Assembly (NCBI GenBank): GCA_016793095.1
Contig: JAEUJQ010000071.1
Coordinates: 124,001-188,000, forward strand
Reading direction: 5' to 3'
Source of the DNA: Myxococcaceae bacterium
Lineage (GTDB): Bacteria; Myxococcota; Myxococcia; Myxococcales; Myxococcaceae
Length of the DNA stretch: 64,000 nucleotides
Numbering within the stretch: position 1 is the stretch's first letter; each line of letters begins with the position of its first letter. The notes below the pieces were generated by a model. It was not told the DNA's origin, did no database searches, and saw nothing but the letters and a program-made list of their open reading frames with translations. Of this stretch, positions 20,714 to 36,436 are shown piece by piece. The position numbers were made by a program, and so were the translations under genes.

Positions 20714-21047
20714 CGCTGCCTCCTCCCCGCAGGACCTGGCGCGGGGTTCGCGCAACGCCTCCAGGTGGACCCACACGACGAGCTCAACGCGAAGGGAGCG
20801 GTGCCTGCTCGCCGCCCCGCAGGCCGTGCTTCGGCGGCATGGTGCACGCCGGAGGAGCTTCACGCGCGCCGGGTGCCCGAGCGCCTTCGACAGCGCCGCC
20901 AGCTCGTCGTCTGCCTTCGCACCTTCGACGGGCCGCAGATCGGGCCGCGTGTCGGCGGTCCGTGCGGGCGAGGGCCCTGGCGTGCGGGGGTTCGCTCACC
21001 GCCTCCAGGTGGACCCGCTCGACGAGCTCGACGCGAAGAAGCGGTGC
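20714..21047. repeat. Duplicated junction of two convergent gene ends
   Basis: This gap of 334 bp holds two further copies of a segment made of the kinase 3' end and the C-terminal codons of the sigma-54 activator. The marker GCCTCCAGGTGGA is at 20673 (inside the kinase), 20757 and 21001. Each copy continues with CGACGAGCTC, ACGCGAAG and then CGCCGCCCCGCAGG or a close variant. No separate gene is seen. Confidence 0.75.
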
Positions 21048-22409
21048 CTACTCGCCGCCCCGCAGGCCGTGCTTCGCCAGCAGGTCGTGCAGGTACGTCC
21101 GGGCGAGGCCTGCGGCGCGCGCCATCTGCGTCACGTTGCCGTTGTGGGTTCGATCGAGCGCCACGAGGTACTCGCGCGTGAAGCGGTCGATGATGCGGTC
21201 CTTCGCCTCCTTGAACGGCACGTCGAGCGCCACTGGCGGAGGCACCGGCTGCACGCTGGGCGCAGAGGCCTTCTCGGGGTTCAACACGTGCTCGAGCGAC
21301 ACCTGGTCACTCACGACGGCGCGGGCCACCACGTTGCGCAGCTCACGCACGTTGCCTGGCCAGTCGTAGGCAGACAGCCGGGTGATGAGGTCGGCGCTCA
21401 GGTCGAAGGACTCCCGGCCGAGCTGAACGAGGAGTGCTCGGACGAGCAGCGGAATGTCCTCGCGGCGCTCCCGAAGCGGAGGCACCCGGAGCGCGGCGAC
21501 GGCGAGCCGGAAGTAGAGGTCTCTGCGGAACCTGCCTGACTGCACCTCGGCAGGCAGCGAGCGGTGCGTGGCGGCGATGACGCGAACATCCACCGCGCGC
21601 GGCCTGTCCTCTCCCAGCCGCTTGACCTGCCTCGCTTCGAGGGCCCGCAGCAGCCGGGGCTGGAGCTCGAGCGGCAGCTCGCCGACCTCGTCGAGGAAGA
21701 GCGTGCCTCCCTCGGCCTCGAGGAAGGCGCCTGGCCGATCCGAGACCGCGCCGCTGAAGGCTCCGCGGGCGTGACCGAAGAGCTCGCTCTCGACGAGCTG
21801 CGGCGCGATGGCTCCGCAATCGACGACGACGAACGGAGCTCGCTTGCGGTTCGAGCGCAGGTGGAGCGCCCTGGCCAGGCCGTCCTTGCCCGTGCCCGTC
21901 TCGCCGAGGAGCAGCACGGGCGTCTCGGTCGGGGCGAGCTTGTCCACCAGCCCGAAGAGGTGCCGCATCACGGCGCTCGCGCCCACCAGGCCCTCGAGCT
22001 CGCTCGGGCCGTCGAGGGTCTCGTCCTGCTCGTCGTCCATCGTGAGCGAGAGCAGGGTGCGCCCGATGGAGATGACGGAGTGGCCCTCGACGATCGCCGA
22101 CTCGATACGCGCACCCCCGATGAGGGTGCCGTTGGTGGAGTTCAGGTCCCTCACGAAGACGCCGTCGGGCCGGGGGTCGAGTTGCACGTGCTGGCCCGAC
22201 ACCGAGCCATCCGACAGCTTCAGGTCGGCCGCATCGGCGCCGCCGACGATGAGCGTTCGCGTGAGCTCGAGCGCGCGCCCGGCGTCGGGACCGCCGATGA
22301 CGCGGACGGTCCACGAGACGCGGTGCAGGTTCCCCTCCGCGTCAACCCGGACGATGGGCGACGCGAGCTTCTCGGTCTTCCGGTGGCCGCCCCGCGGGTC
22401 CGTCGTCAC
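21048..22409 (-). CDS. Sigma-54-dependent activator with N-terminal FHA domain
   Basis: A 453-residue enhancer-binding protein. Residues ~15-110 are an FHA domain (GGxDxADLKLSDGSVSGQH, then DLNSTNGT), which binds phosphothreonine, so input from a Ser/Thr kinase is expected. Residues ~130-355 are the AAA+ domain: Walker A GETGTGKD, Walker B GGTLFLDE, and GAFSGA where most family members have GAFTGA. The C-terminal ~45 residues hold a Fis-type helix-turn-helix (NVTQMARAAGLARTYLHDLL). The GTG start at 22409 overlaps the stop of the upstream lipoprotein gene (GTGA), which decides the start and implies translational coupling. Confidence 0.92.
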   Translation of the reverse strand: MTTDPRGGHRKTEKLASPIVRVDAEGNLHRVSWTVRVIGGPDAGRALELTRTLIVGGADAADLKLSDGSVSGQHVQLDPRPDGVFVRDLNSTNGTLIGGARIESAIVEGHSVISIGRTLLSLTMDDEQDETLDGPSELEGLVGASAVMRHLFGLVDKLAPTETPVLLLGETGTGKDGLARALHLRSNRKRAPFVVVDCGAIAPQLVESELFGHARGAFSGAVSDRPGAFLEAEGGTLFLDEVGELPLELQPRLLRALEARQVKRLGEDRPRAVDVRVIAATHRSLPAEVQSGRFRRDLYFRLAVAALRVPPLRERREDIPLLVRALLVQLGRESFDLSADLITRLSAYDWPGNVRELRNVVARAVVSDQVSLEHVLNPEKASAPSVQPVPPPVALDVPFKEAKDRIIDRFTREYLVALDRTHNGNVTQMARAAGLARTYLHDLLAKHGLRGGE

Positions 22410-23329
22410 CGGATGGCTCCAATCGCAGTGTCGCACAGCACCCAGTCACTCAAGGTCATCTCCATGGGGTCCTGACCGCTCCCCTCATAACGAGGGAAGC
22501 CGAGCTCGAAGGCGATCGGCGTCGAGTCGAGCCCCGATCCCGCAGTGAGCGTGTCGTCGAAGACGCTCGCGCCGTCAATCCAGACCCGACGGAAGGCTCC
22601 TGCCCGCCAGGCGACGCGAACGGTGTGGCTGGTGCCCGGATCGTAGCGTTCAGCGGACCGCGGCCTCGACACCGCAGCGCTCTGCAGCACGGCGGCGCCG
22701 GTGAAGGCTGAGAGCTCCCAGTTGTTGTCGAAGCCCAGCTCGACGATGGGGCCCGTCGAGGCGAGCAGCCGGACGAAGGGAATCAGCCCGTCGAGCCGGG
22801 TGCCGGCAGGGACGACGAACCGGCCCTCGAGCTGGCCCTCGCCATTCGCAGGGAGCCGCAGGGACGACGAGACGACAGCCACGGCGAAGTCGTTGGCGTT
22901 CGCGGCCGAGGGGACCCGCGCGCGCACCCGGTTGGCGTTCGCAGGCTCGATGAGGAGCGACGCGGAGGGCGCGACCCGAGTCGTGGTGAAGCCGTCGCGA
23001 GCTTGCGTCCAGGTGAGACACGTGCCTGCGTCCGCTGAGCCGCCTGCGACTCCACCGCCCGTCACTCCGCCGCCTGCGACTCCACCGCCCGTCACTCCAC
23101 CGCCCGTTGCGCCGCCGCCCGTCGCGCCGCCACCCGTCGCTCCGCCACCCGCTCCCCCGCCCGCGACCGTCCCGGCATCTTGCGGTGCGGGCGCGACGCA
23201 TCGGCCCTCGATGCAGACGCGCCCATCGAAGCAGGCGTGCATGTCATCGCAGAGGCGCCCGGCCCAGTCGGCGGGCGAGACGACACAGCCCGCCACCATC
23301 GGGAGAAGGAGGGCGAGGCGGCTGGTCAT
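22406..23329 (-). CDS. Lipoprotein with Gly-rich stalk and lectin-like domain
   Basis: A 307-residue exported protein with lipobox MVAGC (Cys15), a short Cys-containing segment (CDDMHACFDGRVCIEGRC), a stalk of GGGATGGG/GGGVTGGG repeats at residues ~57-97, and a C-terminal domain of ~200 residues resembling a concanavalin A-like (LamG) beta-sandwich: VELGFDNNWEL, HTVRVAWRAGAFRRVWIDG, FELGFPRYEG. It overlaps both neighbours by 4 bp: its ATG overlaps the stop of the TPR gene and its stop overlaps the start of the activator. It could be the surface sensor for that regulator, but this is only inferred from linkage. Confidence 0.8.
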   Translation of the reverse strand: MTSRLALLLPMVAGCVVSPADWAGRLCDDMHACFDGRVCIEGRCVAPAPQDAGTVAGGGAGGGATGGGATGGGATGGGVTGGGVAGGGVTGGGVAGGSADAGTCLTWTQARDGFTTTRVAPSASLLIEPANANRVRARVPSAANANDFAVAVVSSSLRLPANGEGQLEGRFVVPAGTRLDGLIPFVRLLASTGPIVELGFDNNWELSAFTGAAVLQSAAVSRPRSAERYDPGTSHTVRVAWRAGAFRRVWIDGASVFDDTLTAGSGLDSTPIAFELGFPRYEGSGQDPMEMTLSDWVLCDTAIGAIR

Positions 23330-24197: not shown

Positions 24198-25226
24198 ATG
24201 CCCCGCGTCTTCATTGTCCTTCTTGTCGTCATAACCGGGTGTGCTTCCAGCCGCTCGAATATCGCGTGGCCAGGGCCCCCGGCCACCGAACGGATCCGCT
24301 TCGTGAAGAGCCTGAACGGACCGTCCGACTTCGAGAGCGGGGTGGCGCGGTTCTTCCGGCGCCTCTCGGGGGCCGAGGCGCCGCGCCAGTTGTTCCACCC
24401 CGTGGGTGTCGCGGTGACGAGCTCGGGCGACGTGGTCGCGGTGACGGACCAGGGGCTCGCAGAGCTGTTCATCTTCGACCTCGAGAAGGACACGGTGAAC
24501 ATCGTCTCGAAGGAAGCGCTGGGTGGCGTGCCCATCGGGGTCGCGCTCGAGGGTGACCGCCCGTGGGTCGTGGTCCCCCAGATGAAGGCGGCCATCAACT
24601 ACTCGCGCACCGGAGCGCCGCTGCGTCGCATCGAGCTCACCGACTGCGAGCGGCCCGTCGGCATCACCATCGACGCCCGGAACGACCGGCTCTACGTCAC
24701 TGACGGCTCGACCTCGACCGCCGGCAGCCACGCCGTGCACTCGTACGTGTTGTCCACGGGCGCGCACCAGGCCACCATCGGCAAACGCGGAGACGGCCCG
24801 GGCGAGCTCTTCTTCCCGACGTTCCTCTCCGTCACGCCGACCGGCCGGCTGCTGGTCTCGGACACGATGAACGCCCGCGTGCAGGAGCTCGAGCCCACCG
24901 GCACCTTCGTGCGGCAGTACGGCGAGCGCGGCGACCAGATCGGCCAGCTCGACAAGCCCAAGGGCGTGGCGACGGACTCCTTCGGCAACGTGTACGTCGT
25001 CGATTCGTTCTTCTCGGTCGTGCAGATCTTCAACCGCGACGGGAAGCTGCTGCTCTTCTTCGGCGGCCGCGGCGACTCGTCAGGCTTCTTGTCGAACCCG
25101 GCGGGCATCGCCATCGACGGGAAGAACCGCATCTACGTCACCAACGGGCTCAACTTCCGCGTCGAGGTGTACGAGCTGGTCAACACCACCGCCGCCGACA
25201 GCACCGCAGCGCCGCCAGGAGCCTGA
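24198..25226 (+). CDS. NHL-repeat beta-propeller lipoprotein, first copy
   Basis: A 342-residue lipoprotein (lipobox VITGC, Cys15). After a short segment RIRFVKSLNGPSDFES, about six NHL blades fill the rest, recognised by repeats such as HPVGVAVTSSGDVVAVTDQG, KPKGVATDSFGNVYVVDSFF and NPAGIAIDGKNRIYVTNGLN. NHL propellers are scaffold or binding modules. This one opens a gene string encoding a beta-barrel and multihaem cytochromes, so a structural role in an outer-membrane electron conduit is likely. The ATG at 24198 is chosen for the lipoprotein signal. It ends 5 bp before the barrel gene. Confidence 0.87.
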   Translation: MPRVFIVLLVVITGCASSRSNIAWPGPPATERIRFVKSLNGPSDFESGVARFFRRLSGAEAPRQLFHPVGVAVTSSGDVVAVTDQGLAELFIFDLEKDTVNIVSKEALGGVPIGVALEGDRPWVVVPQMKAAINYSRTGAPLRRIELTDCERPVGITIDARNDRLYVTDGSTSTAGSHAVHSYVLSTGAHQATIGKRGDGPGELFFPTFLSVTPTGRLLVSDTMNARVQELEPTGTFVRQYGERGDQIGQLDKPKGVATDSFGNVYVVDSFFSVVQIFNRDGKLLLFFGGRGDSSGFLSNPAGIAIDGKNRIYVTNGLNFRVEVYELVNTTAADSTAAPPGA

Positions 25227-25231
25227 CCGTC

Positions 25232-26959
25232 GTGAGTCGTGCAGTCGTCACCGTGATGCTGTGGGCGGCGGCTGCGCAGGCTGGCGTGTCAGGACAGGCT
25301 TCGGTGCAGGGGCAGGTTCAGACGCTCGAGACGAAGGCGCCCAATGGCGTCACCATCGGCACCCGCGCGCTGACGCTGTCGGAGAACCTGGGCATTCACT
25401 ACACGGGCACGCCGTTCGGCGCGAACGCGGTGCTGTTGTCCGCCGGGTTCGAGGGCATGAACATGAACGCCTTCGGCGACGCGGGCGCGCTGATGTCGGG
25501 CCGCACCGGCACCATCGACCTCTCCGTGGGGCTGTTCCCGCGGCGCGCGCTCCCGGTGCGGCTCTACGCGCGCGGCACCCTGACGGACGGCGGGCCGCAG
25601 TCGTTCGCGTCCTTCGGTGGCCGCGAAGCCATCGCGTTCGGCGTCAACCTGAACCTCGAGCCGGGCAAGTACCTTCCAGGCCTGCGCCTCGACGCCGAGC
25701 AGATGAACTACACGGCGCTGGGCAGCAACCGCACGCTGGGCGATCTGCGCCGCACCTTGAACGCGACGCTCTTCAAGCAGTTCGGCGAACACCAGGTCAA
25801 CCTGACGACGCGCCTCATGCAGGAGTCGCGGGTCCTCACCGGCGACTGGCTGGGCGTCTTCCTCATCGGCACCTGGACGTCCCCCAGACACACCACGACG
25901 CTGATGGCCGACCACATCGACCGGAGCCGCCTCGCGGTGCAGCTCCCCGGCCAGGCGCCGACGACCGTGGTGGAGCGGAACGCGCGCTTGAGCCACCAAC
26001 AGCGATGGACGCCGCGGCTCTTCACCGACGTGTCGCTCCGCGTCACCGACGCCCGGTTCCCCACGGCCTGGGGCACGCAGGGCGGCGGCACCGTCGGGGC
26101 GTCGTGGCAGCCGTTCGAGCAGCACGAGCTGGTGATGTCGGGGAGCGCCGACGTGGGCTTCGCCGCCACCAGCACCAACACGAGAGTCGGGTCCTTGTCG
26201 GGCGGTTCGGCCCGCGCGGGCTACGGCCGCAGCTTCGGCTACGTCCGGCCGGGGGTCTCGGTCGGCGGGCTCGCCCAGCACTGCGCCAACTGCGTCGGCC
26301 TGGTGGACGGGTGGCTCGGCGCCTTCGACGTGGGCGCCAGCGTCGCGACGATGGGCTTCACCCGCTTCGACGCCCAGCTCGAGTACCGCATGGCGCTGGT
26401 GCGCGCGCCCGCTGGCCGTGGCGGCAACCGGACCGAGCACCACGCGAAGGGCACGGGGCGGTTCCGCATCAACTCGCGCAGCGAGGTCTACGCGCTGGTG
26501 GGCTACGACGATGGCTACCGCGACTTCATCGACGTGTTGTCGGGTGGCATCGCGACGCTCCGCGAGCAGGCCTTCACCGTCGGCGGCGGCGTGCAGGCGA
26601 CCCTGGGGCGGGGCACCGGCAGCCTCGACGCCCGTCACAGCCGCGGCAACGCCGTCATTCCCCAGTCGACGTTCACCTTCGGGCCCCCGCCGACCGCGCG
26701 TGAGGTGACGCAGCTGAACGCGACGGTGCTGCTGCCGGTGCTGCCCTGGCTCGACACCAGCGCCGGGGGCGTGGCGGCGTGGACCGTCATCGACAACACC
26801 CAGCCGCTCACCACGTTCGGCGGCAACGTCGGCGCGTCTGCCCGCTTCGGCCGCTTCACCTCGACGCTCGCGTGGAGCGTCATGCGCAACGACGTCAGCG
26901 GCTCCGTCACCACCCAACACCTCGTCCGTCTCAGCCTCAGCCGTCCGTTCGATTTCTGA
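25232..26959 (+). CDS. Outer-membrane beta-barrel protein of the cytochrome cluster
   Basis: A 575-residue exported protein: short signal peptide ending AAAAQA, then throughout the protein alternating polar/non-polar strands of 8-12 residues separated by Gly/Asn/Asp turns, ending in a strand that terminates SLSRPFDF. This C-terminal Phe and the strand pattern are typical of outer-membrane barrels. A CxxC pair (HCANC, near residue 351) lies in one loop. Flanked by two NHL lipoproteins and followed by multihaem cytochromes, it is the obvious candidate for the porin of a porin-cytochrome conduit, as MtrB is in Shewanella; there is no clear sequence match to MtrB. GTG start at 25232. Confidence 0.72.
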   Translation: MSRAVVTVMLWAAAAQAGVSGQASVQGQVQTLETKAPNGVTIGTRALTLSENLGIHYTGTPFGANAVLLSAGFEGMNMNAFGDAGALMSGRTGTIDLSVGLFPRRALPVRLYARGTLTDGGPQSFASFGGREAIAFGVNLNLEPGKYLPGLRLDAEQMNYTALGSNRTLGDLRRTLNATLFKQFGEHQVNLTTRLMQESRVLTGDWLGVFLIGTWTSPRHTTTLMADHIDRSRLAVQLPGQAPTTVVERNARLSHQQRWTPRLFTDVSLRVTDARFPTAWGTQGGGTVGASWQPFEQHELVMSGSADVGFAATSTNTRVGSLSGGSARAGYGRSFGYVRPGVSVGGLAQHCANCVGLVDGWLGAFDVGASVATMGFTRFDAQLEYRMALVRAPAGRGGNRTEHHAKGTGRFRINSRSEVYALVGYDDGYRDFIDVLSGGIATLREQAFTVGGGVQATLGRGTGSLDARHSRGNAVIPQSTFTFGPPPTAREVTQLNATVLLPVLPWLDTSAGGVAAWTVIDNTQPLTTFGGNVGASARFGRFTSTLAWSVMRNDVSGSVTTQHLVRLSLSRPFDF

Positions 26960-26961
26960 CC

Positions 26962-28014
26962 ATGTTCCGTCTCGCCGCCACCGCCGCCGTCTTCGCCCTC
27001 GCCGCCTCGTGCGCGAGCGCGCCCGTGCGGCGGGTCGGCGAGCGCCGGGCGGATGACCCGACCTGGCTGAAGGCCGGTGAGCAGCAGGTGCGCTTCGTCG
27101 GTGCGCTCGAGCTGCCCGCGCACGTCGGCATCGAGCGCAGCGGCTTCGAGCGCTTCTGGGCGTGGCTCACCGGGGCGGACGAGGCGCACGCGCTGGCCAG
27201 GCCCTTCGGCGTCGCGGTGGACCCGACGGGGCGCATCGCCGTCACCGACCCTGGCGCTCGCACGGTGCGCCTGTACGACCCCGCCGCCGGTCGCGAGCGC
27301 GAGCTCAAAGACGGCGTCGCCGTGCCCCTCGCCGCCGCCTTCATCGGCCAGCTCCTCGTCGTCGCGGACGGAGAGCGCGCGACGCTCGTGGCCTTCGACG
27401 TGGACACCGGCGCTCCGGCTCAGGTGCCCTGGCAGCTGCCCACCTTCACGAGGCCGACGGGCCTGGCGTTCGACGGCCCGCGGCGGCGCCTCTTCGTCGT
27501 GGACGCGGGGCAGCACCTCGTGCACGTCGTCTCGACGGCCGGGGCAGCGCCGACGACCCTGGGCCAGCGCGGTGAAGCGAACGGTGAGTTCAACTTCCCG
27601 ACGCACGTCGCGGTGGACTCGCGGGGCCACCTGTTCGTCTCCGACAGCCTGAACTTCCGCGTCCAGCACTTCGACGAAGGGCTCGCCTTCGTGCGCGCGC
27701 TCGGCGGCCTGGGGGACTCGCTCGGCGACCTCCCTCGAGCCAAGGGCGTCACGGTGGACCCGGCGGGGACCGTCTGGGTGGTGGACGGCTCGGCCGACGT
27801 CGTGCAGGGCTTCGACAGCACCGGCGAGCTGGTGGGCATCTTCGGCGGGAGCGGCGTCGAGCCCGGCCGCTTCTGGCTGCCAGCCGGCCTCACCTCGGAC
27901 GCCACCGGCCGGCTGTACGTCGCTGACACCTGGAACGGCCGCGTTCAGGTCTTCGTCATCGAGCCCGCGCCGAAGTCGAAGCCGCCGGAGAGCGCTCAGG
28001 GGGTGACGCCGTGA
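26962..28014 (+). CDS. NHL-repeat beta-propeller lipoprotein, second copy
   Basis: A 350-residue paralogue of the first NHL lipoprotein with lipobox LAASC (Cys17). It shares the lead-in (QQVRFVGALELPAHVGIE), the F-W-A-W-L-T-G-A-D insertion corresponding to F-F-R-R-L-S-G-A-E in the first copy, and blades such as RPFGVAVDPTGRIAVTDPG and FPTHVAVDSRGHLFVSDSLN. The ATG at 26962 is 2 bp after the barrel stop; its own stop overlaps the start of the 12-haem cytochrome (GTGA). The pair of propellers around one barrel suggests a two-lipoprotein complex. Confidence 0.87.
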   Translation: MFRLAATAAVFALAASCASAPVRRVGERRADDPTWLKAGEQQVRFVGALELPAHVGIERSGFERFWAWLTGADEAHALARPFGVAVDPTGRIAVTDPGARTVRLYDPAAGRERELKDGVAVPLAAAFIGQLLVVADGERATLVAFDVDTGAPAQVPWQLPTFTRPTGLAFDGPRRRLFVVDAGQHLVHVVSTAGAAPTTLGQRGEANGEFNFPTHVAVDSRGHLFVSDSLNFRVQHFDEGLAFVRALGGLGDSLGDLPRAKGVTVDPAGTVWVVDGSADVVQGFDSTGELVGIFGGSGVEPGRFWLPAGLTSDATGRLYVADTWNGRVQVFVIEPAPKSKPPESAQGVTP

Positions 28015-29963
28015 GCGCCCTCGTCGCGGTGTTCGCCGCCATGACGCTCGCGCAGGCGAACGTGCGCAACACGCGTCACAACCTCTCCTCGACGTCTTCG
28101 AACCCCGTGAAGGCGCTGAGCGAGACCCAGGTCTGCGTCTTCTGCCACATCCCGCACGGCGGCTCGCAGTCGCGCGCGACCTGGAACCGGAACCTCGCCT
28201 ACCAGGCGGGCGGCACCATCTACACCGTCTACGGCTCCTCGACCGTCGAGGCCCCTCCGGACCGGCCGAACGGGGCGAGCCGCCTCTGCCTGTCGTGCCA
28301 CGATGGCGCCCTCGCGCTGGGAGCGTTGCTCAACCTCGACGCCACGCGACCGGCCACGGTGGCGATGCAGGGCGGTGTCACCACCATGCCGGTGGGCCCG
28401 CGCAACCTCGGCACCGACCTGCGCAACGACCACCCCATCTCGCTGCCCATCCCCGCCACGGACCCGGAGATCATCGCGCCGCCCGGCGGTGACGCCGTCA
28501 AGCTGCAGGTCGGCGCGACCTCGGCGAAGGACCGGGTGCAGTGCACCTCGTGCCATGACCCGCACCTCCCCACCGCGAAGTTCCTCGTGAAGAGCAACCT
28601 GCGCGGAGCGCTCTGCCTCACCTGCCACCCCAAGCAGGGCTGGCTGGGCAGCCGCCACGAGGCGTCGCTCGCCCCGTACCCAGCGACCGGCTCTCAGACG
28701 GTCGGGGACCTCGGGTGCATCGCCTGTCACAAGCCCCACAACGGCGAGGGGCCCACGAAGCTGCTCACCACGCAGAACCTGTCGGGCACACCACTCGCCT
28801 GGAACGAAGAGAACGTCTGCTTCTCGTGCCACCGCTCAGGCGGCACCGGCATCGACCCGGTCCGCAGCCGGGCTGCGCCCGACATTCAGACCGAGGCGCT
28901 CAAGGCCTCGCGCCACCCCTTCAACCTCAAGCTGGACGAGCACCAGCCCATCTTCACCGCGAAGGTGCCCGAGCCCGAGCCGGTGCTCAACGTGCAGAAG
29001 CACGTCGAGTGCGCCGACTGTCACAACCCGCACCAGGTGCAGGCGCTGCCGGGCAACGTGCACGAGGGCAGCAAGGGCATCTCGTTGTCGGGCGCGGTCG
29101 TGGTGGACAACGCCGGCGTGAACCTCGCCCAGTACGAGGTCTGCTTCCGGTGTCACGGCGACTCCTTCGCGACGATGATTGCCCCAGCTGCCACGCGCCC
29201 ACCGGGAGGCAGCAACAAGCGCCTCGAGTTCCAGACGACGAATGACGCCTTTCATCCCGTCGCGGGCCCGGGTCGCAACACCTCGACGTACCTCAACAAC
29301 GTGCTCGACTCGCCCGCCGGTCAGCTCGTCGGACTCGACTGGCAGGGCAACCGGCTCAACCGCTTCTCCACGGTGCTCTGCACCGACTGCCACAACAACC
29401 AGGCGACCGGCACCGCGGGAAACACGGGCAGTGCGCGCCAGAGCGCTGGGGGTCCCAAAGGGCCGCACGGCTCGACGAACCCCCGGCTCCTGCGGGCGAA
29501 CTACAGCACCGCGGTGGGCGGCGGCAGCGCGCCCTTCGGCAGCTTCAACGCGAACAACTTCGCGCTCTGCTTCCTCTGCCACGACTCCGCCAGCCTGCGC
29601 GGCAACCGCAGCAACTTCTTCCAGGCGGGGGGCGTGGGTGCAGGCCGCGGCAACCTGCACGAGGTGCACCTCGTCACCCGCACGAACGCGTCGTGCCACG
29701 AGTGCCACTACAACGTGCACTCGAACGTCGCCGCCACCAACACGGACTACCGCAACGTCCCCGCGGGCACGCCCACGCACCTCGTCAACTTCTCGCCCAA
29801 CGTGACGCGGGGCAGCGGCAACGACCCCCAGTACGGCGACAGCCCGACGCGCCCGCGCTGGGGACGCACGCCGTCGGGCGACTACTACTGCTTCGCGGGC
29901 TGCCACGGCCGCGCCGACGCAATGGACGGCGACAAGTCCGTCTACAGGCCCCCCAACCCATGA
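28011..29963 (+). CDS. Dodecahaem c-type cytochrome with a terminal CX3CH site
   Basis: A 650-residue exported cytochrome with eleven CxxCH motifs (CVFCH, CLSCH, CTSCH, CLTCH, CIACH, CFSCH, CADCH, CFRCH, CTDCH, CFLCH, CHECH) plus one CFAGCH near the C-terminus, spaced CX3CH. CHDPH and CHNPH sequences mark the doubled-CxxCH family, where the second His serves as axial ligand. Its N-terminal ~180 residues resemble the two tetrahaem proteins downstream. The signal peptide is short and without lipobox. GTG start at 28011 overlaps the upstream stop. Likely carries electrons across the periplasm or at the cell surface. Confidence 0.9.
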   Translation: MSALVAVFAAMTLAQANVRNTRHNLSSTSSNPVKALSETQVCVFCHIPHGGSQSRATWNRNLAYQAGGTIYTVYGSSTVEAPPDRPNGASRLCLSCHDGALALGALLNLDATRPATVAMQGGVTTMPVGPRNLGTDLRNDHPISLPIPATDPEIIAPPGGDAVKLQVGATSAKDRVQCTSCHDPHLPTAKFLVKSNLRGALCLTCHPKQGWLGSRHEASLAPYPATGSQTVGDLGCIACHKPHNGEGPTKLLTTQNLSGTPLAWNEENVCFSCHRSGGTGIDPVRSRAAPDIQTEALKASRHPFNLKLDEHQPIFTAKVPEPEPVLNVQKHVECADCHNPHQVQALPGNVHEGSKGISLSGAVVVDNAGVNLAQYEVCFRCHGDSFATMIAPAATRPPGGSNKRLEFQTTNDAFHPVAGPGRNTSTYLNNVLDSPAGQLVGLDWQGNRLNRFSTVLCTDCHNNQATGTAGNTGSARQSAGGPKGPHGSTNPRLLRANYSTAVGGGSAPFGSFNANNFALCFLCHDSASLRGNRSNFFQAGGVGAGRGNLHEVHLVTRTNASCHECHYNVHSNVAATNTDYRNVPAGTPTHLVNFSPNVTRGSGNDPQYGDSPTRPRWGRTPSGDYYCFAGCHGRADAMDGDKSVYRPPNP

Positions 29964-30715
29964 GCGCGCTCCTCTCCATCGTGAGCGCGCTCGCGCTCCA
30001 GCAGACGGTGGTGGCGATGAAGCCGCCCGTCATCCCGCGCGCGCCCTCCCGCCTCGACGCTTCGCCGCACAACTTCTTCGGCCCGATGGCGCGGCCGATG
30101 AGCGAGGCCACCGACCTCTGCCAGCTGTGCCACGTGCCCAACCGGCTCGAGTGGCCGGGGCGTGGCCCGAAGTGGGACCCGAAGCGGCCGGGGCGCAACG
30201 CGGCGCTCGACGTGCGCGCGGACCCAACCGGGCCGCCGTTGGCGCTGCGGTGGGCCGGCAGCACGCTGCGGTGCTTGTCGTGCCACGACGGCACCGTCTC
30301 GAGCATCAACATCGCGCACCGCGCCTCCTCGGCGTCGCTGAGGTTCGACGGCAACGCCGCCAACGGGCTGATGGCGAGCGGCCGCAACGGGCCGGCCCTG
30401 GCCTACCCCGAGCTGACGACCGGACCGGTGATGGGCAACCACCCGGTGTCCGTGCCCTACCCGCTGGACCACGCGGGCTCCGAGTACAAGGGCTTCGGGC
30501 CGCGCGCGGTGCCCATCAACACCCTCGAGTGGGTGCCCGACCCGCGCGTGAACGGCCTCAAGCTGGTCAGCGACACCTCGGGGTTCGACGTGCTGCGGGG
30601 CACCGTGGGCGTCGAGTGCAGCTCGTGCCACGACCCGCATGGCACGACGAACACCTACTTCCTGCGGGTCCCGAAAGAACGGAGCGAACTGTGTCTGGGC
30701 TGCCACCGGAAATGA
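29960..30715 (+). CDS. Tetrahaem c-type cytochrome, first copy
   Basis: A 251-residue exported cytochrome with four CxxCH motifs (CQLCH, CLSCH, CSSCH, CLGCH), the third followed by DPHGTTNTYFLRV. The ATG at 29960 overlaps the preceding stop (ATGA) and its stop overlaps the next start in the same way, so synthesis is probably coupled. The order of motifs and the segment GNHPVSVPYPLDHAGSEYKG are repeated in the tetrahaem protein at 33.9 kb, so the two are paralogues from a duplication inside the operon. Confidence 0.9.
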   Translation: MSALLSIVSALALQQTVVAMKPPVIPRAPSRLDASPHNFFGPMARPMSEATDLCQLCHVPNRLEWPGRGPKWDPKRPGRNAALDVRADPTGPPLALRWAGSTLRCLSCHDGTVSSINIAHRASSASLRFDGNAANGLMASGRNGPALAYPELTTGPVMGNHPVSVPYPLDHAGSEYKGFGPRAVPINTLEWVPDPRVNGLKLVSDTSGFDVLRGTVGVECSSCHDPHGTTNTYFLRVPKERSELCLGCHRK

Positions 30716-31908
30716 CGCGCGCTGCGTCGTCGTGCGGGGCCGCGGCCGGGCGGTGGGCCCTCTCGTGTGCGCTCGCGCTGGGCGCCGTGACCGCGCTCGC
30801 TGGCGCGCCCATGCCCAGGCTGCCGAAGGCGCCCGCTGGACAAGGAGACGACTGCCGCACCTGTCACGCCGAGGCGTGGGTCGGGAAGGAGATCATCCAC
30901 CCGCCGGTGAAGAACGGGCTGTGCCTCGGCTGCCACGTCTCGACCTCGGACACGGCGCACACGTTCGACCTCGCCGGCGATGGGAAGGCTCTCTGCGCGC
31001 AGTGCCACTCGACGCGCGACAGCAAGAAGGTGCAGCACCCGCCCGTGACCGAGGGCCTGTGCCTCGACTGCCACGACCCGCACGCCTCGAACGAGCACGC
31101 GAGGCTGCGCCAGAGCCCCTTCGACACCTGCACGCGGTGCCACCCCTCGAAGCGGGCTCAGAACGACACGTCGCTCACGAAGCACGGCGCCCTCGACCCG
31201 AAGCAGAACCCGCGGGTGTGCGTCGCCTGCCATGACGCGCACGAGTCAGACCATGAGCGGCGGCTCCATGACTGGCCGGTCGAGAAGGTGTGCGTCACCT
31301 GTCACGACAAGCAGGTGCAGGCGCCCGACAAGCTGCTCATGGACCTCAAGGGCTGGCTGGACCGGCACGACGCCGGCACCATGCGCCACGGTCCGGTGCG
31401 CGAGGGCCGCTGCCCCGATTGCCACGAGCCGCACGGCACCTCCGAGTTCCGCATGCTGAAGGGCTCGTACCCGGCGGCGCCCTACACGCCGTTCGCGAGC
31501 CCGGCCGAGGACTACGGGCTCTGCTTCAGGTGCCACGACACCCGGCTCGTCACCGAGAAGGAGCTCTACGAGAAGGCGGTGAGCAACCCGGACCCGGCGG
31601 TGGACCTCTCGTGGAGAGCGCTCGACGGTGGCACCCGCCTCGTGCGCCAGGGCACCACGGGCTTCCGCAACGGTGAAGAGAACCTGCACGTGCGGCACGT
31701 CAACAAGATCGACAAGGGCCGCACCTGCCGCTTCTGCCACGACGTGCACGCGTCCGAGAACCCGAAGCACGTGCGCACCACCACCACGTTCGGGAGCTGG
31801 GAGTTCCCGCTCAACTACCAGAAGACGACGACGGGCGGCTCGTGCTGGCCAGGCTGCCACGCCCAGCGCCAGTACGATCGGCACCAACGGAAGGAGAACC
31901 CGCGATGA
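30712..31908 (+). CDS. Undecahaem c-type cytochrome with a terminal CX3CH site
   Basis: A 398-residue exported cytochrome, translated from ATG at 30712 with 4-bp overlap to the previous gene. Ten CxxCH motifs (CRTCH, CLGCH, CAQCH, CLDCH, CTRCH, CVACH, CVTCH, CPDCH, CFRCH, CRFCH) plus CWPGCH, a CX3CH motif about 15 residues before the end. CLDCHDPHAS and CPDCHEPHGT are doubled-CxxCH signatures. The haem density, one per ~36 residues, suggests a wire-like protein. It shares the odd terminal motif with the dodecahaem cytochrome, although the two are otherwise different in layout. Confidence 0.9.
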   Translation: MTRAASSCGAAAGRWALSCALALGAVTALAGAPMPRLPKAPAGQGDDCRTCHAEAWVGKEIIHPPVKNGLCLGCHVSTSDTAHTFDLAGDGKALCAQCHSTRDSKKVQHPPVTEGLCLDCHDPHASNEHARLRQSPFDTCTRCHPSKRAQNDTSLTKHGALDPKQNPRVCVACHDAHESDHERRLHDWPVEKVCVTCHDKQVQAPDKLLMDLKGWLDRHDAGTMRHGPVREGRCPDCHEPHGTSEFRMLKGSYPAAPYTPFASPAEDYGLCFRCHDTRLVTEKELYEKAVSNPDPAVDLSWRALDGGTRLVRQGTTGFRNGEENLHVRHVNKIDKGRTCRFCHDVHASENPKHVRTTTTFGSWEFPLNYQKTTTGGSCWPGCHAQRQYDRHQRKENPR

Positions 31909-32984
31909 CGGGAGCGCTCCTCACCGTCGTGTTGGCCGCGGCGCCGCGCCTGTGGGCGCCGGGGCCTGTCGGGCAATCGACGCGGGAGCGCGTGCGCGTC
32001 TTCGTCGAGATCGACCAGACCACCACCTTCACGCTGGAAGACGCGGGCCTCCGCTGCTCGACCGGTCCGCGCTTCAAGCTCTCCGGCGCGCCGGTGAGCA
32101 CGCCAGACGCAGGCGAGGCGCTCGATGGGGGCGTGGACGGCGGGGTCGACGCGCCCACCCCCGACGTCGCGGAGCAGCCGACGCCCGCCGTCGCCAGCGA
32201 GCCCGCCCGGGTGGGGCCGGTGGATGGCGGCGCGTGGTTGGCCCACTGCTCGGTCTCGCTCTCTCCCGGCGCCAACACCTTCACGGCGGCGGTGGGCCCG
32301 GCGGACGGCGGAGCGCGGGTGACGGCGGTGCTCACGCGCTACCTCACGACCGGCACCATTCCGGTCGAGCTCGACCGCGCGGGCTTCGGTCCGGGCACGG
32401 TGCACCGCCCCGAGATCGAGGCCCTCTGCGCGCAGTGCCATCGCATGGAGCGCCCCGACGGCGGCTCCGACGGCGCCTTCTGCTCGTCGTGTCACGCGGA
32501 GATCATGCAGCGACCCATCATGCACGGCCCGGTGCAGCAGGGCGCCTGCCTGCCCTGCCACGACCCAGCGAGCGCGCCCTCGAGGTACCAGGTGCGCTGG
32601 CCGATTCAGGAGACGTGCTTCAGCTGTCACGTCGACATCAAGGCGCTGATGGAGCGGAAGGCCGTGCGCCATGGCCCCGCCGCGGCTGGCCGCTGCACCA
32701 CCTGCCACGACCCGCACGGCACCGACCAGCAGTACTGGCTCAAGCTGCGCCCGTACGACCTCTGCACCAACTGCCACACCGAGAAGCGGGGCGAGCGGCA
32801 CGTGGTGGTGGGCTTCGTGTACGGCGACTCGCACCCGCTGCAGGGCCGACCGCACCCGTTCAAGGAGCGCACCGAGTTCGGCTGTCCTTCTTGTCACAAC
32901 CCGCACGCCGCGCAGGCGCGCTTCCTCTGGCAGTTCGACGTCACCACCCGGGATTCCCTATGCCGAACGTGTCATCAGAAGTGA
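31905..32984 (+). CDS. Octahaem c-type cytochrome with N-terminal beta domain
   Basis: A 359-residue exported protein. Residues ~20-165 lack haem motifs and look like a beta-sandwich with an Asp/Gly/Pro-rich insertion (DAGEALDGGVDGGVDAPTPD). Eight CxxCH motifs follow (CAQCH, CSSCH, CLPCH, CFSCH, CTTCH, CTNCH, CPSCH, CRTCH), with CHDPHGT and CHNPHAA. ATG at 31905 overlaps the upstream stop. The last motif lies 4 residues from the C-terminus, as in the tetrahaem proteins. Confidence 0.88.
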   Translation: MTGALLTVVLAAAPRLWAPGPVGQSTRERVRVFVEIDQTTTFTLEDAGLRCSTGPRFKLSGAPVSTPDAGEALDGGVDGGVDAPTPDVAEQPTPAVASEPARVGPVDGGAWLAHCSVSLSPGANTFTAAVGPADGGARVTAVLTRYLTTGTIPVELDRAGFGPGTVHRPEIEALCAQCHRMERPDGGSDGAFCSSCHAEIMQRPIMHGPVQQGACLPCHDPASAPSRYQVRWPIQETCFSCHVDIKALMERKAVRHGPAAAGRCTTCHDPHGTDQQYWLKLRPYDLCTNCHTEKRGERHVVVGFVYGDSHPLQGRPHPFKERTEFGCPSCHNPHAAQARFLWQFDVTTRDSLCRTCHQK

Positions 32985-33883
32985 GGCACTCGCTGCTCGT
33001 CTCGGAGCGCTCGCGGCTCGCGGAGCTGTCGCGCGCGCCGTCGGCGTTGGCCGCAGCGCTCCTCGCCGCCGCCGCGCTCGCGGGTCCACCAGCGCCTGTC
33101 GCCCCCGCGGGCCCCGGCGTGCCGAAGCGGATCATCACGCCGTGGCCGCAGAACCCCGGCCTGGCGCCGCCAGTGACGCCAGACCTGCTCGAGCTCGGCG
33201 CGCGCGTGTACCGGGGCGCCTGCCAGGGGTGTCACGGCGAGAAGGGCGACGGCATCGGCCGCGAGGGCAAGTACCTGCAGATTCCCCCTCGCGACTTCAC
33301 CACCGGCCAGTACATCATCCGCTCGACGCCGCTGGGCACGCTGCCGCTCGACACCGACCTCTTCGGTTCGATTCGGCGCGGCTTCCGCCCGGGCCTGGGC
33401 ATGCCGGGCTTCACGTTCCTCTCGGACCGCGAGGTGTGGGCCGTCATCGCGCACCTCAAGACGTTCTCTCCACGCTTCAAGACCGAGCAGCCAGGCAAGC
33501 CCGTCGACCTGCCTCCCGTGCCAGCAGAGCTCTCGGCGATGGCGGGGCCGGGCACGGCGGTCTTCATGGGCGCCGGGGCGTGCTTCGTCTGTCACGGCAT
33601 GCAGGGCAAGGGTGACGGCCCGGCGGCGCCGGGCCTCGTCTACGTCTCGGGCGCGCACCAGGGGAAGCGGGTGCCGCCCGCGAACCTGCACCGCGTGGAC
33701 ACGTTCAAGGGCGGGCGCCGCCCAGAAGACATCTTCAAGGCCATCAGCACGGGGCTCGACGGTACGCCCATGCCCGGCTTCGCAGCGTCGTTGTCCGTCG
33801 AACAGCGGTGGCAGCTCACCGCGTTCATTCTGTCGTTGAACCCCCCGGCGGGGACCGCCGGATCACCAGGAGCAGTCCCATAG
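32981..33883 (+). CDS. Dihaem c-type cytochrome, two class I domains
   Basis: About 300 residues with a signal segment (ALAAALLAAAALAGPP) and two class I cytochrome c domains: CQGCHGEKGDG with a downstream GMPGFTFLSDREVWAVIAHL, and CFVCHGMQGKGDG with GTPMPGFAASLSVEQRWQL. The methionines in G-M-P-G-F and P-M-P-G-F are probable distal ligands. A GTG at 32981 overlaps the preceding stop (GTGA), like the other junctions of this operon; an ATG at 32960 is an alternative. Probably a periplasmic shuttle feeding the multihaem proteins. Confidence 0.87.
   Translation: MRHSLLVSERSRLAELSRAPSALAAALLAAAALAGPPAPVAPAGPGVPKRIITPWPQNPGLAPPVTPDLLELGARVYRGACQGCHGEKGDGIGREGKYLQIPPRDFTTGQYIIRSTPLGTLPLDTDLFGSIRRGFRPGLGMPGFTFLSDREVWAVIAHLKTFSPRFKTEQPGKPVDLPPVPAELSAMAGPGTAVFMGAGACFVCHGMQGKGDGPAAPGLVYVSGAHQGKRVPPANLHRVDTFKGGRRPEDIFKAISTGLDGTPMPGFAASLSVEQRWQLTAFILSLNPPAGTAGSPGAVP
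33845..33861 (+). other. GC-rich hairpin at the end of the dihaem cytochrome gene
   Basis: CCGGCGG-GGA-CCGCCGG is a perfect 7-bp stem with a 3-base loop within the last codons. It lacks a T-tract, so it may be an mRNA-stabilising or processing hairpin before the next cytochrome gene rather than a terminator. Confidence 0.35.
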
Positions 33884-33893
33884 GAGTCGTACC

Positions 33894-34649
33894 ATGACCA
33901 GAAGAGTCGTTCTCCCAATCGCAGTGTTCGCAGCGCTGTGGTGCACGAGCGCGTTCGCGCAGATGTCGACCACCCGTCACAACTTCCAGCTCGGGACGAA
34001 CCCCGTTCGTGTCGCCCCGGGTTCGCCGGAAGACGGGTTGTGCGTGTTCTGCCACACACCTCACAAGGGGCAGGCCTCGCTCCTCTTGTGGAACCACACC
34101 ATGTCCACCAACAACTACACCTGGGCGGACCTCGGAGCAGGCGGCCGAACCACCGGTGGTACGACCTACCCCACGAACCTCCGGACCTGGACGGGCTCGA
34201 CGGCGAAGTGCTTGTCGTGCCACGACGGCACGGTGTCGATCGGCTCGCTGTACTGGGCGAACGCGACCGCGAGCATCAACATCCCCATGACGGGTCCAGA
34301 CGTGAACGCGGCGGGTCAGCTCAGCAACCCGACGTACATCATCCCCGCGAACCCGGGCGTCGGCACGGACCTGACGGGCAACCACCCGGTGGGGGTGCCG
34401 TACCCGTATGACAACGCCTCGTCGACCTACAACGGCATCACCTCGGGCGTGGACGTGGTGCTCACCGAGTGGGTCGCCCGGCCCACGGGCGTGAAGATCT
34501 TCGGGACGGGAGGAGGCGGCGCGCCCGCGGCCGGCGCGGCCGGTATCGAGTGCGCCTCGTGCCACAACCCGCACGGCACTCCGAACCGCTTCTTCCTGCG
34601 CGTCACCACCAACACGAGCCAGCTCTGTCTCTCGTGCCACATCAAGTAA
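33894..34649 (+). CDS. Tetrahaem c-type cytochrome, second copy
   Basis: A 251-residue exported cytochrome (signal peptide VFAALWCTSAFAQ) with four CxxCH motifs: CVFCH, CLSCH, CASCH, CLSCH. It matches the tetrahaem protein at 29.96 kb along its length: the T-A-K-C-L-S-C-H-D-G-T-V-S block, GNHPVGVPYPYDNASSTYNG and ASCHNPHGTPNRFFLRV. Its start TRHNFQLGTNPV also resembles the N-terminus of the dodecahaem cytochrome. The ATG at 33894 follows an AGGAG that overlaps the previous stop codon. Confidence 0.9.
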   Translation: MTRRVVLPIAVFAALWCTSAFAQMSTTRHNFQLGTNPVRVAPGSPEDGLCVFCHTPHKGQASLLLWNHTMSTNNYTWADLGAGGRTTGGTTYPTNLRTWTGSTAKCLSCHDGTVSIGSLYWANATASINIPMTGPDVNAAGQLSNPTYIIPANPGVGTDLTGNHPVGVPYPYDNASSTYNGITSGVDVVLTEWVARPTGVKIFGTGGGGAPAAGAAGIECASCHNPHGTPNRFFLRVTTNTSQLCLSCHIK

Positions 34650-34680
34650 GCCACGCCGTCAGCGCCTGAGGATTCGACAG

Positions 34681-35247
34681 ATGACTCATCGAATGTCCCC
34701 CGCCCTCGGGTTCCTGGTGTTCACTCTCTCCCTCGCAGGCTGTGGCGGCTCGACCGTCCCGGTCTGCCAGGGAGCAGGGTGCGCCTGCACCAGTACGGCC
34801 TGCGGGTGCACCAGCGGTTCGTGCACGCAGACCTGTACGAGTGCCGCCTGTGCGACGAGCTGCTCTTCGAACGCCACCTGCACGGTGGCGGGCGCGGAGC
34901 AGGCCTCGGTGAGCTGTGCCGACAACTCGACCTGCGCGGGCACGGTCGGACAGAACGGCGTCGTGGCGTGCAGGGACAACGCCCGCTGCGACGTGAACGG
35001 CGGCGCGAACACGAAGGTGACGTGCTCGAGCTCGGCCGACTGCGAGGGGACCCTCGGAGCCGGGAGCACGGTGACCTGCGACAACCAGTCCGAGTGTGGC
35101 GTGAAATGTTCGGGGACCTGCACCGTCAGCTGCCTCGCCAGCGCAAAGTGCCGCTGCGAGGGCGCGGGGTGCACCGTCACCTGTGCGTCGGGAGCGGCGC
35201 CGACGACTTGCCCAGACGGGCGCATCGTCTGCAACCGCGGGTGCTGA
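34681..35247 (+). CDS. Cysteine-rich lipoprotein with 18-residue repeats
   Basis: 188 residues with 29 cysteines. Lipobox LSLAGC gives Cys21 as the lipidated residue. From about residue 75 the cysteines fall in strict alternation of 6 and 12 residues (for example CADNSTC, then 12 to CRDNARC, then 12 to CSSSADC), an 18-residue period expected for a beta-solenoid whose turns are tied by disulfides. There is no CxxCH. It follows the last tetrahaem gene by 31 bp and may be part of the same transcript. A larger relative with the same period lies at 57.1 kb. Function unknown. Confidence 0.72.
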   Translation: MTHRMSPALGFLVFTLSLAGCGGSTVPVCQGAGCACTSTACGCTSGSCTQTCTSAACATSCSSNATCTVAGAEQASVSCADNSTCAGTVGQNGVVACRDNARCDVNGGANTKVTCSSSADCEGTLGAGSTVTCDNQSECGVKCSGTCTVSCLASAKCRCEGAGCTVTCASGAAPTTCPDGRIVCNRGC

Positions 35248-35262
35248 GCGCGCCCGAGAGGT

Positions 35263-35283
35263 GAGGCCGCGGGGGGCGGCCTC
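35263..35283 (+). terminator. Hairpin after the cytochrome/Cys-rich gene string
   Basis: GAGGCCGC and GCGGCCTC (35263-35270 and 35276-35283) form a perfect 8-bp stem with a 5-base G loop, 15 bp after the Cys-rich lipoprotein stop. No T-run follows, so termination is possible but not certain. Confidence 0.45.
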
Positions 35284-35332
35284 GGGGTGAAGGTGTTCGT
35301 CGCTGCAGAAGGAGCGGTTGGAGAAGGAGCGG

Positions 35333-36436
35333 ATGATGACGAGGAACGCGGTGCTGGTCGCAGTCCCGGTGCTGGTGCTGATAGCGCACGCCGTGCGGGC
35401 GGATGAGACGCGCTTCGGTGACAAGTCCAGCGTGACGGTCACCTTCGACCCGAGCCCCAACCGGGGTGAGAAGGTCTACATGACGTACTGCTTTCACTGT
35501 CATGGTGAGTTCGGAGACGGCAGCGGCCACATCGGCCGCGGCCTCGACGTCAAGCCGGTCGATCTCACCGACCCGGCGCTGGCGCCACGGATGACGGCGC
35601 GGAACATCGCCTACGTCGTGCGTGAAGGCTCGAGCACGCCCAGCGCGGCGATGATCCCCTGGAAGACGGTGCTGCCCGAGGAGCTGATCAAGGACGTCGC
35701 CCTCTACACCGAGCGCCTCGCGGCCGAAGGGCGGGCGTGGCATGCGGACGGAGGTCCGGTCGCGAAGAAGGCAGGTCGCATCACCCGGCTCAGCCTGGAG
35801 GAGACGAAGCCGAAGCCTCGGCTGCTCGACAAGAAGATGATCACCGGCATGGCGCTCATCAAGGAGCACGTCGGCGCGGTCGTCGCCTATGACGACGGCA
35901 AGTGGCGAGACCCGAGCGACTTCGTCGTGGTGGACCCCGGGGCGCTGCTGTCCGACGTGAACGCGCCCCCCGTCCCAGCGCCGAGCGGCTGGTTCCAGCC
36001 AATCAAGGAGGACTACCGCGCGAAGGAAGGGTGGCAGAAGCTCCGCTGGGGTATGACGACGGTTGAGGTGCTGGCCGCCCTGGGCAAGGTCGAGAAGCTC
36101 AAGCCGAGCGAGGGCCTTCAGCTCGCGTGGAAGTGGAAGATCGGTGACACGCCCGTCGTGGTCGAGGCGATCCTCGTCAGCGGCCACCTGGGTGGGGTCA
36201 TGGTCCGCGTGCCGGGCAACTCATTCGAGACCGTGAGGGGCCTGGTGGTGGCGAAGTACGGCGCGCCCCAGGAAGACGGAACGGTGGACGCGCGCTGGAC
36301 GACGCCCGAGTCCGCCATCTCCGTGCGCATCCTCGCCCTCACGCCATCAGTCCTCTACCTGTCCAGGGCGCACGCTCTGCTGGCGAACGAGCACGTCGCC
36401 GAATTCCAGAAGAAGCAGGCCGACGAAGGCCTCTGA
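35333..36436 (+). CDS. Monohaem cytochrome c with unknown C-terminal domain
   Basis: About 367 residues. After a signal peptide, one class I cytochrome domain carries CFHCHGEFGDG at about residues 53-63 and spans to about residue 135. The remaining ~200 residues contain no haem motif; they include LRWGMTTVEVLAALGK, which resembles small lipoprotein-type domains with a W-G-M-T signature. ATG at 35333 or 35336 follows GAAGGAG; the second gives better spacing. It lies just after the hairpin at 35263 and may have its own promoter. Probably a periplasmic partner of the cytochrome operon. Confidence 0.82.
   Translation: MMTRNAVLVAVPVLVLIAHAVRADETRFGDKSSVTVTFDPSPNRGEKVYMTYCFHCHGEFGDGSGHIGRGLDVKPVDLTDPALAPRMTARNIAYVVREGSSTPSAAMIPWKTVLPEELIKDVALYTERLAAEGRAWHADGGPVAKKAGRITRLSLEETKPKPRLLDKKMITGMALIKEHVGAVVAYDDGKWRDPSDFVVVDPGALLSDVNAPPVPAPSGWFQPIKEDYRAKEGWQKLRWGMTTVEVLAALGKVEKLKPSEGLQLAWKWKIGDTPVVVEAILVSGHLGGVMVRVPGNSFETVRGLVVAKYGAPQEDGTVDARWTTPESAISVRILALTPSVLYLSRAHALLANEHVAEFQKKQADEGL

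Follow-up and report, generated by a model that had tools for sequence, protein, structure and literature searches.

What kind of system is encoded where two beta-propeller lipoproteins, a beta-barrel and a run of multihaem cytochromes lie side by side? The question is raised by a gene cluster at positions 24198 to 36436 of a 64,000-base stretch of DNA from a Myxococcaceae bacterium, which as a whole is called the window below (bases 124001-188000 of contig C63, JAEUJQ010000071.1; genome, 8.8 Mb; window G+C, 70.7%). The cluster consists of eleven open frames on the + strand, with no internal stops, in the order NHL1, barrel, NHL2, MHC12, MHC4a, MHC11, MHC8, CYT2, MHC4b, a Cys-rich gene and CYT1. 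A preliminary description had reported a barrel gene between two NHL lipoproteins and, after them, cytochromes with 12, 4, 11, 8, 2, 4 and 1 haem motifs, and both frames and motifs confirmed this. Its sum of about 42 motifs also stands at 42 (40 CxxCH and two CxxxCH), with the correction that the "12" and the "11" each include a single CxxxCH site; counted as CxxCH plus CxxxCH, the cytochromes hold 11+1, 4, 10+1, 8, 2, 4 and 1 motifs in gene order. It had further stated that most junctions are 4-bp overlaps, while only half of them are: ATGA/GTGA overlaps occur at 5 of the 10 junctions (NHL2/MHC12, MHC12/MHC4a, MHC4a/MHC11, MHC11/MHC8 and MHC8/CYT2), the last of which requires a GTG start at 32981, the alternative CYT2 start being the ATG at 32960.

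We read the first nine genes, NHL1 to MHC4b, as a unit coding for an outer-membrane electron conduit and, as part of it, a cytochrome-filament subunit, and as a one-operon Myxococcota version of the omcE gene set of the Geobacteraceae plus their NHL-MHC12 locus, OmcE/Uet-like in character. We put the probability of this joint claim at about 0.62, the function being predicted from gene content and kinship. Electrons would probably leave the cell by this route. The accessible parts of the cytochrome filament literature (PMC12954529 and PMC12203936 among them) describe the wires and not their outer-membrane anchoring. The operon names a concrete parts list for this wire-membrane junction, namely, an OmcE relative, MHC12, a barrel, two propellers and the cytochromes that have MtrA-like stretches.

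Orthologue profiles of the cytochromes were searched against PDB sequences, in which 7TFS is OmcE and 6R2Q_A is MtrA, as given in the available text of PMC12954529 and PMC12203936. The tetrahaem protein MHC4b (33894..34649) was related to OmcE over the whole chain, with profile positions 8-249 aligning with residues 11-232 of the 7tfs chain (hmmsearch; E = 2.1e-19), and its four CxxCH motifs and four candidate distal His are retained in all six aligned MHC4b sequences. By sequence, MHC4b is thus an OmcE relative and a candidate orthologue, and it may form filaments as well. MHC12 (28011..29963) begins with an OmcE-like 4-haem domain (profile positions 5-207; E = 1.4e-32 against 7tfs), followed by an 8-haem part for which PDB matches were marginal (best E, 0.0054). 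Its last haem site is a C-terminal CxxxCH, all 12 sites are invariant in 17 aligned Myxococcota relatives, and Pfam finds in the protein both Paired_CXXCH_1 and MtrC/MtrF domain II/IV, the latter scoring 47 bits where the cut-off is 30. MHC4a (29960..30715) is an OmcE-like tetrahaem paralogue (E = 1.1e-12 against 7tfs), and chain 9yuq_N, described as a "putative multiheme cytochrome c," is a further match shared by MHC4b, MHC12 and MHC4a. Because OmcE-like proteins are present as candidate outer cytochromes (MHC4b, MHC4a and the OmcE-like domain of MHC12), the propellers accompany such candidates, and the earlier idea that they replace the outer cytochrome is rejected. MtrA (6r2q_A) was matched over about 90 residues each by the 11-haem MHC11 (30712..31908; E = 1.5e-10) and the 8-haem MHC8 (31905..32984; E = 6.7e-14). 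CYT2 (32981..33883) comprises two class-I cytochrome c domains (Pfam Cytochrome_CBB3, E = 9.7e-19; Cytochrom_C, E = 3.7e-18).

These genes are inherited together. A search of 60 genomes recovered the barrel in six: the window's own (G000), two of six congeneric genomes (G003 and G006), two more in the family (G021 and G015), and one from another family of the same order (G058). A seventh genome, G096, reached via MHC12, holds the same nine genes, so that NHL1, barrel, NHL2, MHC12, MHC4a, MHC11, MHC8, CYT2 and MHC4b occur together in 7/7 window-type genomes, the window's own included; in G058 they are spread over two contigs, with the barrel split at a contig break. Cytochromes that always occur apart from barrel and NHL genes, which the preliminary description had named as a refutation, are thus not what these seven genomes show; like the barrel prediction below, this speaks for a conduit. 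MHC4b is the last of the nine in G000, G003, G006 and G021 and lies between NHL1 and barrel in G015, G058 and G096. Haem counts are identical across the seven genomes, except for the MHC11 frame of G058, which has 8 of 11 sites (L023 4242-5018; a broken frame or an assembly error). The ratio of nonsynonymous to synonymous substitution rates (dN/dS) of the nine genes, calculated against G006 and G003, of the same genus, was 0.18 to 0.42, lowest for MHC4b and with the single highest values for NHL2 and barrel. This range, together with the recurrence in seven genomes, indicates that the unit is more than a chance assembly. In a survey of the family, the barrel was found in 5/96 genomes and the same five carry a full-score MHC12, so that this myxobacterial family has such a system in only a few of its members.

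The same gene types are found in the Geobacteraceae, sampled here as the family of Geomonas paludis and without G. sulfurreducens among the genomes. OmcE, searched with the 7tfs chain as query, was present in 14/18 genomes at 44 to 64% identity. In the six of these 14 genomes whose omcE loci were read, the order was always the same: a 10+1-haem gene, an 8-haem gene, NHL, OmcE and a barrel-like open reading frame (ORF) of 747 to 809 amino acids ending in F. Profile comparison by hhalign paired MHC11 with the 10+1-haem protein (E = 1.4e-62, versus 2.1e-26 for MHC8) and MHC8 with the 8-haem protein (E = 1.1e-41, versus 1.5e-21 for MHC11), and MHC4b matched the six Geobacteraceae OmcE sequences with an E value of 9.6e-33. 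The NHL-OmcE-barrel order is also that of G015, G058 and G096. In 5/6 loci, the 10+1-haem gene is preceded, at a distance of about 2.5 kb, by a 3-haem gene that ends like PpcA. The MHC12 profile was matched in 35/48 Geobacteraceae genomes, in some via the OmcE-like part alone. In eight loci selected for matches covering the C-terminal part only (L205-L212), the NHL gene is followed each time (8/8) by two genes in place of MHC12, one with 4 and one with 8 (7+1) haem sites, and these pair with the two parts of MHC12 (E = 1.2e-44 and 1.9e-72). From the gene and profile matches, the window operon holds in one run what the Geobacteraceae keep at two places. The likeness to the omcE locus thus covers an OmcE relative, an NHL protein, the 10+1-haem and 8-haem cytochromes and a barrel-like ORF, whereas the NHL-MHC12 part stands at a separate locus with MHC12 in two pieces, and counterparts of MHC4a and CYT2 were not seen in the 14 stretches. 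The make-up is hence not unique, being shared with the omcE locus and a second locus of the Geobacteraceae taken together and, by gene type, with much of the published Uet set.

Searches with the barrel gene (25232..26959; 575 amino acids, GTG start, C-terminal PFDF) returned nothing from Pfam or NCBIfam, nor any PDB sequence at an E value of ≤1. An AlphaFold2 run with five aligned orthologues gave five models with mean predicted local distance difference test scores (pLDDT) of 52 to 78. The best model (mean pLDDT, 78; predicted template modelling score [pTM], 0.59) begins with a signal helix and continues in 28 strands, so that the protein is predicted as a barrel and not as a soluble fold, in line with the first assignment. 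The top Foldseek matches to this model were LptD, MtrB and TonB-type barrels. MtrB (6r2q_B) had a query TM-score of 0.52, the highest among the 50 matches listed (E = 1.7e-7; root mean square deviation, 12.8), and VIA-align superposed 441 residues of the two proteins (Z = 14.0; rank 48). We read the protein as a large outer-membrane barrel that, going by the model, would be able to hold a cytochrome; its occupancy is not settled by the fold. The strand alternation score, expressed as z above shuffled copies, was 3.8 for the window barrel, 3.5 to 4.7 for the six Geobacteraceae ORFs, 3.6 for the Geomonas ORF of L117, 3.7 for the Desulforhopalus ORF of L148, and 2.3 for L057, compared to 0.7 for a kinase control, -0.7 for NHL1, 1.6 for NHL2 and 1.1 for MHC12. 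The barrel is the least conserved gene of the unit by pairwise identity (32 to 67%). In this otherwise poorly conserved protein, Cys 351 and Cys 354 are invariant in the five aligned orthologues and possibly form a loop disulfide.

Barrel and propellers might instead be an export or assembly apparatus for filament cytochromes that carries no electrons, with MHC11 and MHC8 as periplasmic carriers. Such a role would suit the Geomonas locus L117, in which SurA/PpiC-type genes adjoin the cluster, and the window cytochromes, which by eye have plain signal peptides and no lipobox; the Uet set described in the available text of PMC10734462 likewise combines a peptidyl-prolyl isomerase (PPIase) with barrel and NHL genes. 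We nevertheless consider it unlikely, given a 28-strand model for which MtrB scores highest among the matches listed, two cytochromes with MtrA-like stretches that travel with the barrel, and the absence of a PPIase from the window cluster, all eleven proteins of which were scanned.

The two propellers, NHL1 (24198..25226; Pfam NHL, E = 3.3e-20) and NHL2 (26962..28014; E = 1.1e-27), both start with a lipobox-like N terminus (ITGC and AASC, respectively) and have a residue other than Asp after the Cys, both features being judged by eye. The best solved relative of NHL1 is the NHL domain of TRIM71 (E = 1.8e-45). We built a tree of 100 NHL proteins, taken from 38 of the MHC12 loci described below (one of each kind), from six window-type genomes and from the Geobacteraceae (six of each kind). 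Propellers adjacent to a tetrahaem gene separated from those upstream of MHC12 with a single change, and none of 500 shuffles was as low. NHL1 grouped with the propellers adjoining a 4-haem gene and NHL2 with those upstream of MHC12, while the NHL copies of the Geobacteraceae omcE loci joined the tree close to the dividing branch. An old pair of paralogues maintained together fits these data best.

To what extent is this arrangement shared beyond the two groups? A scan with the MHC12 profile, using one genome per species, returned at least 564 confirmed relatives, of which the best 80 were analyzed; as a consequence, the loci described here lean to the closest relatives. They come from 12 named phyla, plus 7 loci without a named phylum, and MHC12 has 11+1 sites in 72/80. 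An NHL gene lies directly upstream in 68 of the 75 loci having at least 900 bases upstream. This count follows a strict position rule, and three of the seven misses (L121, L129 and L134) hold an NHL match on the stretch; at least one NHL gene occurs anywhere on the stretch in 77/80. Among the 38 loci of at least 20 kb, all but one (37) carry two or more NHL genes, and an OmcE-like tetrahaem gene is present in 35. The MHC12-NHL core thus recurs across these 12 phyla. In L118 (9920-11656), from a gammaproteobacterial metagenome-assembled genome, the MHC12 frame terminates in a glycine run.

Barrel candidates, chosen by position and alternation score, were found just upstream of NHL-MHC12 in 50 of the 68 loci, and 42 of them end in an aromatic residue (the other eight being those of L082, L111, L113, L115, L128, L131, L138 and L142). 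Among the 18 loci without a candidate, at least five have the NHL gene less than 400 bases from a contig end. This recurrence bears on a third possibility, that the cytochromes serve a periplasmic process such as electron storage or detoxification, with the barrel as a porin unconnected to them beyond sharing the operon. The physiology of OmcE filaments is disputed in the parts of the literature available, which would leave room for such a role. However, a barrel is retained in all seven window-type loci, a barrel-like ORF stands at the matching place in all six Geobacteraceae omcE loci, and the 50/68 candidates, with their 42 aromatic ends, continue the pattern. We therefore give the periplasmic explanation very little credence.

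Several results weigh against a conduit of the kind we favor. General porins outrank MtrB in VIA-align and LptD chains are about as similar as MtrB in Foldseek; because LptD and TonB-type barrels and general porins also match, the MtrB likeness is one of fold only. The profile match between the window barrels and 13 barrels from other phyla was weak (probability, 49%; E = 1.8e-4), and hhalign gave a probability of 0.7% against the Geobacteraceae ORFs; homology is not demonstrable, and in the absence of an alignment the Geobacteraceae ORF matches by position only. The MtrA-like stretches of MHC11 and MHC8, of only about 90 residues, are rich in haem motifs, and their likeness is partly generic, since MHC4b also touches MtrA (32 residues; E = 0.0022); the AlphaFold2 model of MHC11 was poor (pLDDT, 31; pTM, 0.17). 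An MHC11-type gene is present in 27 of the 80 MHC12 loci, usually having 13+1 or 14+1 sites; the 10+1 type occurs in one of them, L072 (= G003). MHC8-type genes are rare (4/80, all in Myxococcota or Thermodesulfobacteriota, one being L072 again). Finally, the branch dividing NHL1 from NHL2 is weakly supported (75/19), and the single change is kept in 80% of 200 bootstrap trees.

MHC4a differs from the other OmcE relatives at one position. OmcE carries a His three residues downstream of its first CxxCH, as do 6/6 MHC4b, 6/6 Geobacteraceae OmcE, 6/6 Geobacteraceae 4-haem proteins and 58 of 59 tetrahaem relatives from the 80 best MHC12 loci (60 found, minus the MHC4a of L072); the remaining candidate distal His of these proteins were checked loosely. 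MHC4a has N or S instead in 7/7 orthologues. The exception among the 59 comes from a KSB1 locus, in which the second tetrahaem gene (L099 12486-13112) has Q (CHIPQ) and the first keeps the His. In OmcS, the matching His is the one donated to the next subunit. In OmcE, haem 2 is ligated by a His from the neighboring subunit, according to the available part of PMC12203936. If the same His is meant, MHC4a, lacking it, could accept but not donate an inter-subunit haem ligand, and our guess is that it could then end a filament.

How might these parts work together? In the conduit we envisage, the barrel would hold an MtrA-like cytochrome, MHC11 or MHC8, and this plug would be supplied with electrons by carriers in the periplasm, CYT2 for example. 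MHC12 combines the OmcE-like domain with an 8-haem part and would link the plug to the outside. MHC4b would polymerize as an OmcE-type filament and dock on the OmcE-like domain of MHC12, and MHC4a may end the filament. Both propellers would be anchored in the outer membrane, where NHL1 may dock or help to assemble the OmcE/barrel part and NHL2 may do likewise for the MHC12 part. A bolder version is a nanowire built onto the outer membrane, with MHC12 as base adaptor, MHC4a as end piece and NHL1 and NHL2 guiding the two parts; the OmcE-like domain of MHC12 would then be the first docking face of the wire and the 8-haem part would meet the barrel plug. We put this version forward tentatively and regard it as rather doubtful.

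We compared the unit with known systems. The Uet complex, in the available text of PMC10734462, comprises tetrahaem UetA, PPIase UetB, barrel UetC, trihaem UetDEG, two NHL proteins UetHI, and UetJ, a doubled-CXXCH protein with 11 to 12 CxxCH. By gene type and haem count, not by sequence, UetA, UetC, UetHI and UetJ have one window counterpart each; MHC12 fits UetJ by motif count and Pfam Paired_CXXCH_1, a comparison made by description. The window cluster adds MHC11, MHC8, MHC4a and CYT2, and neither a UetB-type PPIase nor trihaem UetDEG-type genes were found at 24198-36436, the rest of the genome not having been searched. Membership in Uet was therefore rejected. With Uet comes the possibility that the same conduit works inward, so that Fe(II), electrodes or partner cells would be its electron donors, as has been proposed for that complex. 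The accessible text of PMC10734462 and PMC13386937 places Uet in cathode-oxidizing Tenderiales and as a predicted candidate for Fe(II) oxidation in Gallionella and Leptothrix. A related cluster (L129 = G086) is carried by the cultured Anaeromyxobacter oryzae, of the same order as the window genome, which speaks against this direction. Anaeromyxobacter is a genus known for metal reduction, and we find electron uptake quite improbable here.

MtrCAB of Shewanella resembles the unit in its large barrel, the window barrel having an MtrB-like fold (query TM-score, 0.52), and in cytochromes with MtrA-like stretches. Unlike MtrCAB, the window has an OmcE-like outside part with propellers, and its barrel model has 28 strands, compared to 26 for MtrB. 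No MtrC/OmcA equivalog was found, the best score with NCBIfam decahem_SO1788 being 20.3 bits where the cut-off is 209.3, and membership in this system was rejected as well. In D. ferrophilus, the NHL genes DFE_0451 and DFE_0463 adjoin multihaem cytochromes, and the species is described as lacking an apparent porin-cytochrome conduit (PMC9769857). Set beside the window by description, not by sequence, this species shares NHL genes next to multihaem cytochromes. An "OetABI" conduit reportedly exists in the sulfate-reducing partners of anaerobic methanotrophic archaea (ANME). A Geoalkalibacter locus encodes MtoA-like, OmcE-like and two NHL proteins, according to the accessible part of PMC12016550. 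No paper came up in a narrow literature search that combined beta-propeller, cytochrome, Myxococcota and extracellular electron transfer; a looser search did return papers, and we do not claim the myxobacterial cluster to be new to the literature.

The last two frames of the cluster appear to be accessory. A Cys-rich putative lipoprotein (34681..35247) has no Pfam match; among the stretches fetched, it lies beside the cluster only in G006, where it is 61% identical. The 1-haem cytochrome CYT1 (35318..36436; Pfam Cytochrome_CBB3, E = 4.2e-8) has a weak 88-residue match in G021 only. As a core part, CYT1 was rejected, since it is not conserved with the unit and is separated from it by the Cys-rich gene. 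The conduit that the preliminary description had proposed is supported in outline, by the large barrel of MtrB-like fold, the MtrA-like stretches and the conserved co-occurrence, and CYT1 drops out. Upstream, on the - strand, a sigma-54 activator with an FHA domain (21048..22436; Pfam Sigma54_activat, E = 2.3e-63; FHA, E = 1.1e-10) is a possible regulator of the unit; scans for sigma-54 and sigma-70 promoters gave signals at or below chance. Direct repeats, seen as 18-mers occurring twice, lie at 20665-21076, across and beyond the end of a kinase gene (18761-20713).

Elsewhere in the genome, an orphan MHC12 paralogue (C71:44893-46716; L055 8858-10762, - strand) has 41% identity and 11+1 haem sites. 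The 20 kb read around it contain no window-type NHL, barrel or tetrahaem gene, and ORFs of about 1050 and 1170 amino acids lie on one side. The cluster has no gene for an inner-membrane quinol oxidase, as had been noted from the start; two NapC/NirT-family matches lie elsewhere in the genome, one inside a run of large multihaem genes. This run (C90, about 129.5-138.3 kb; L225 5501-14342) consists of large frames on both strands with 23, 3, 10, 11 and 12+1 motifs, and the NapC/NirT-family match sits in the 3-motif frame.

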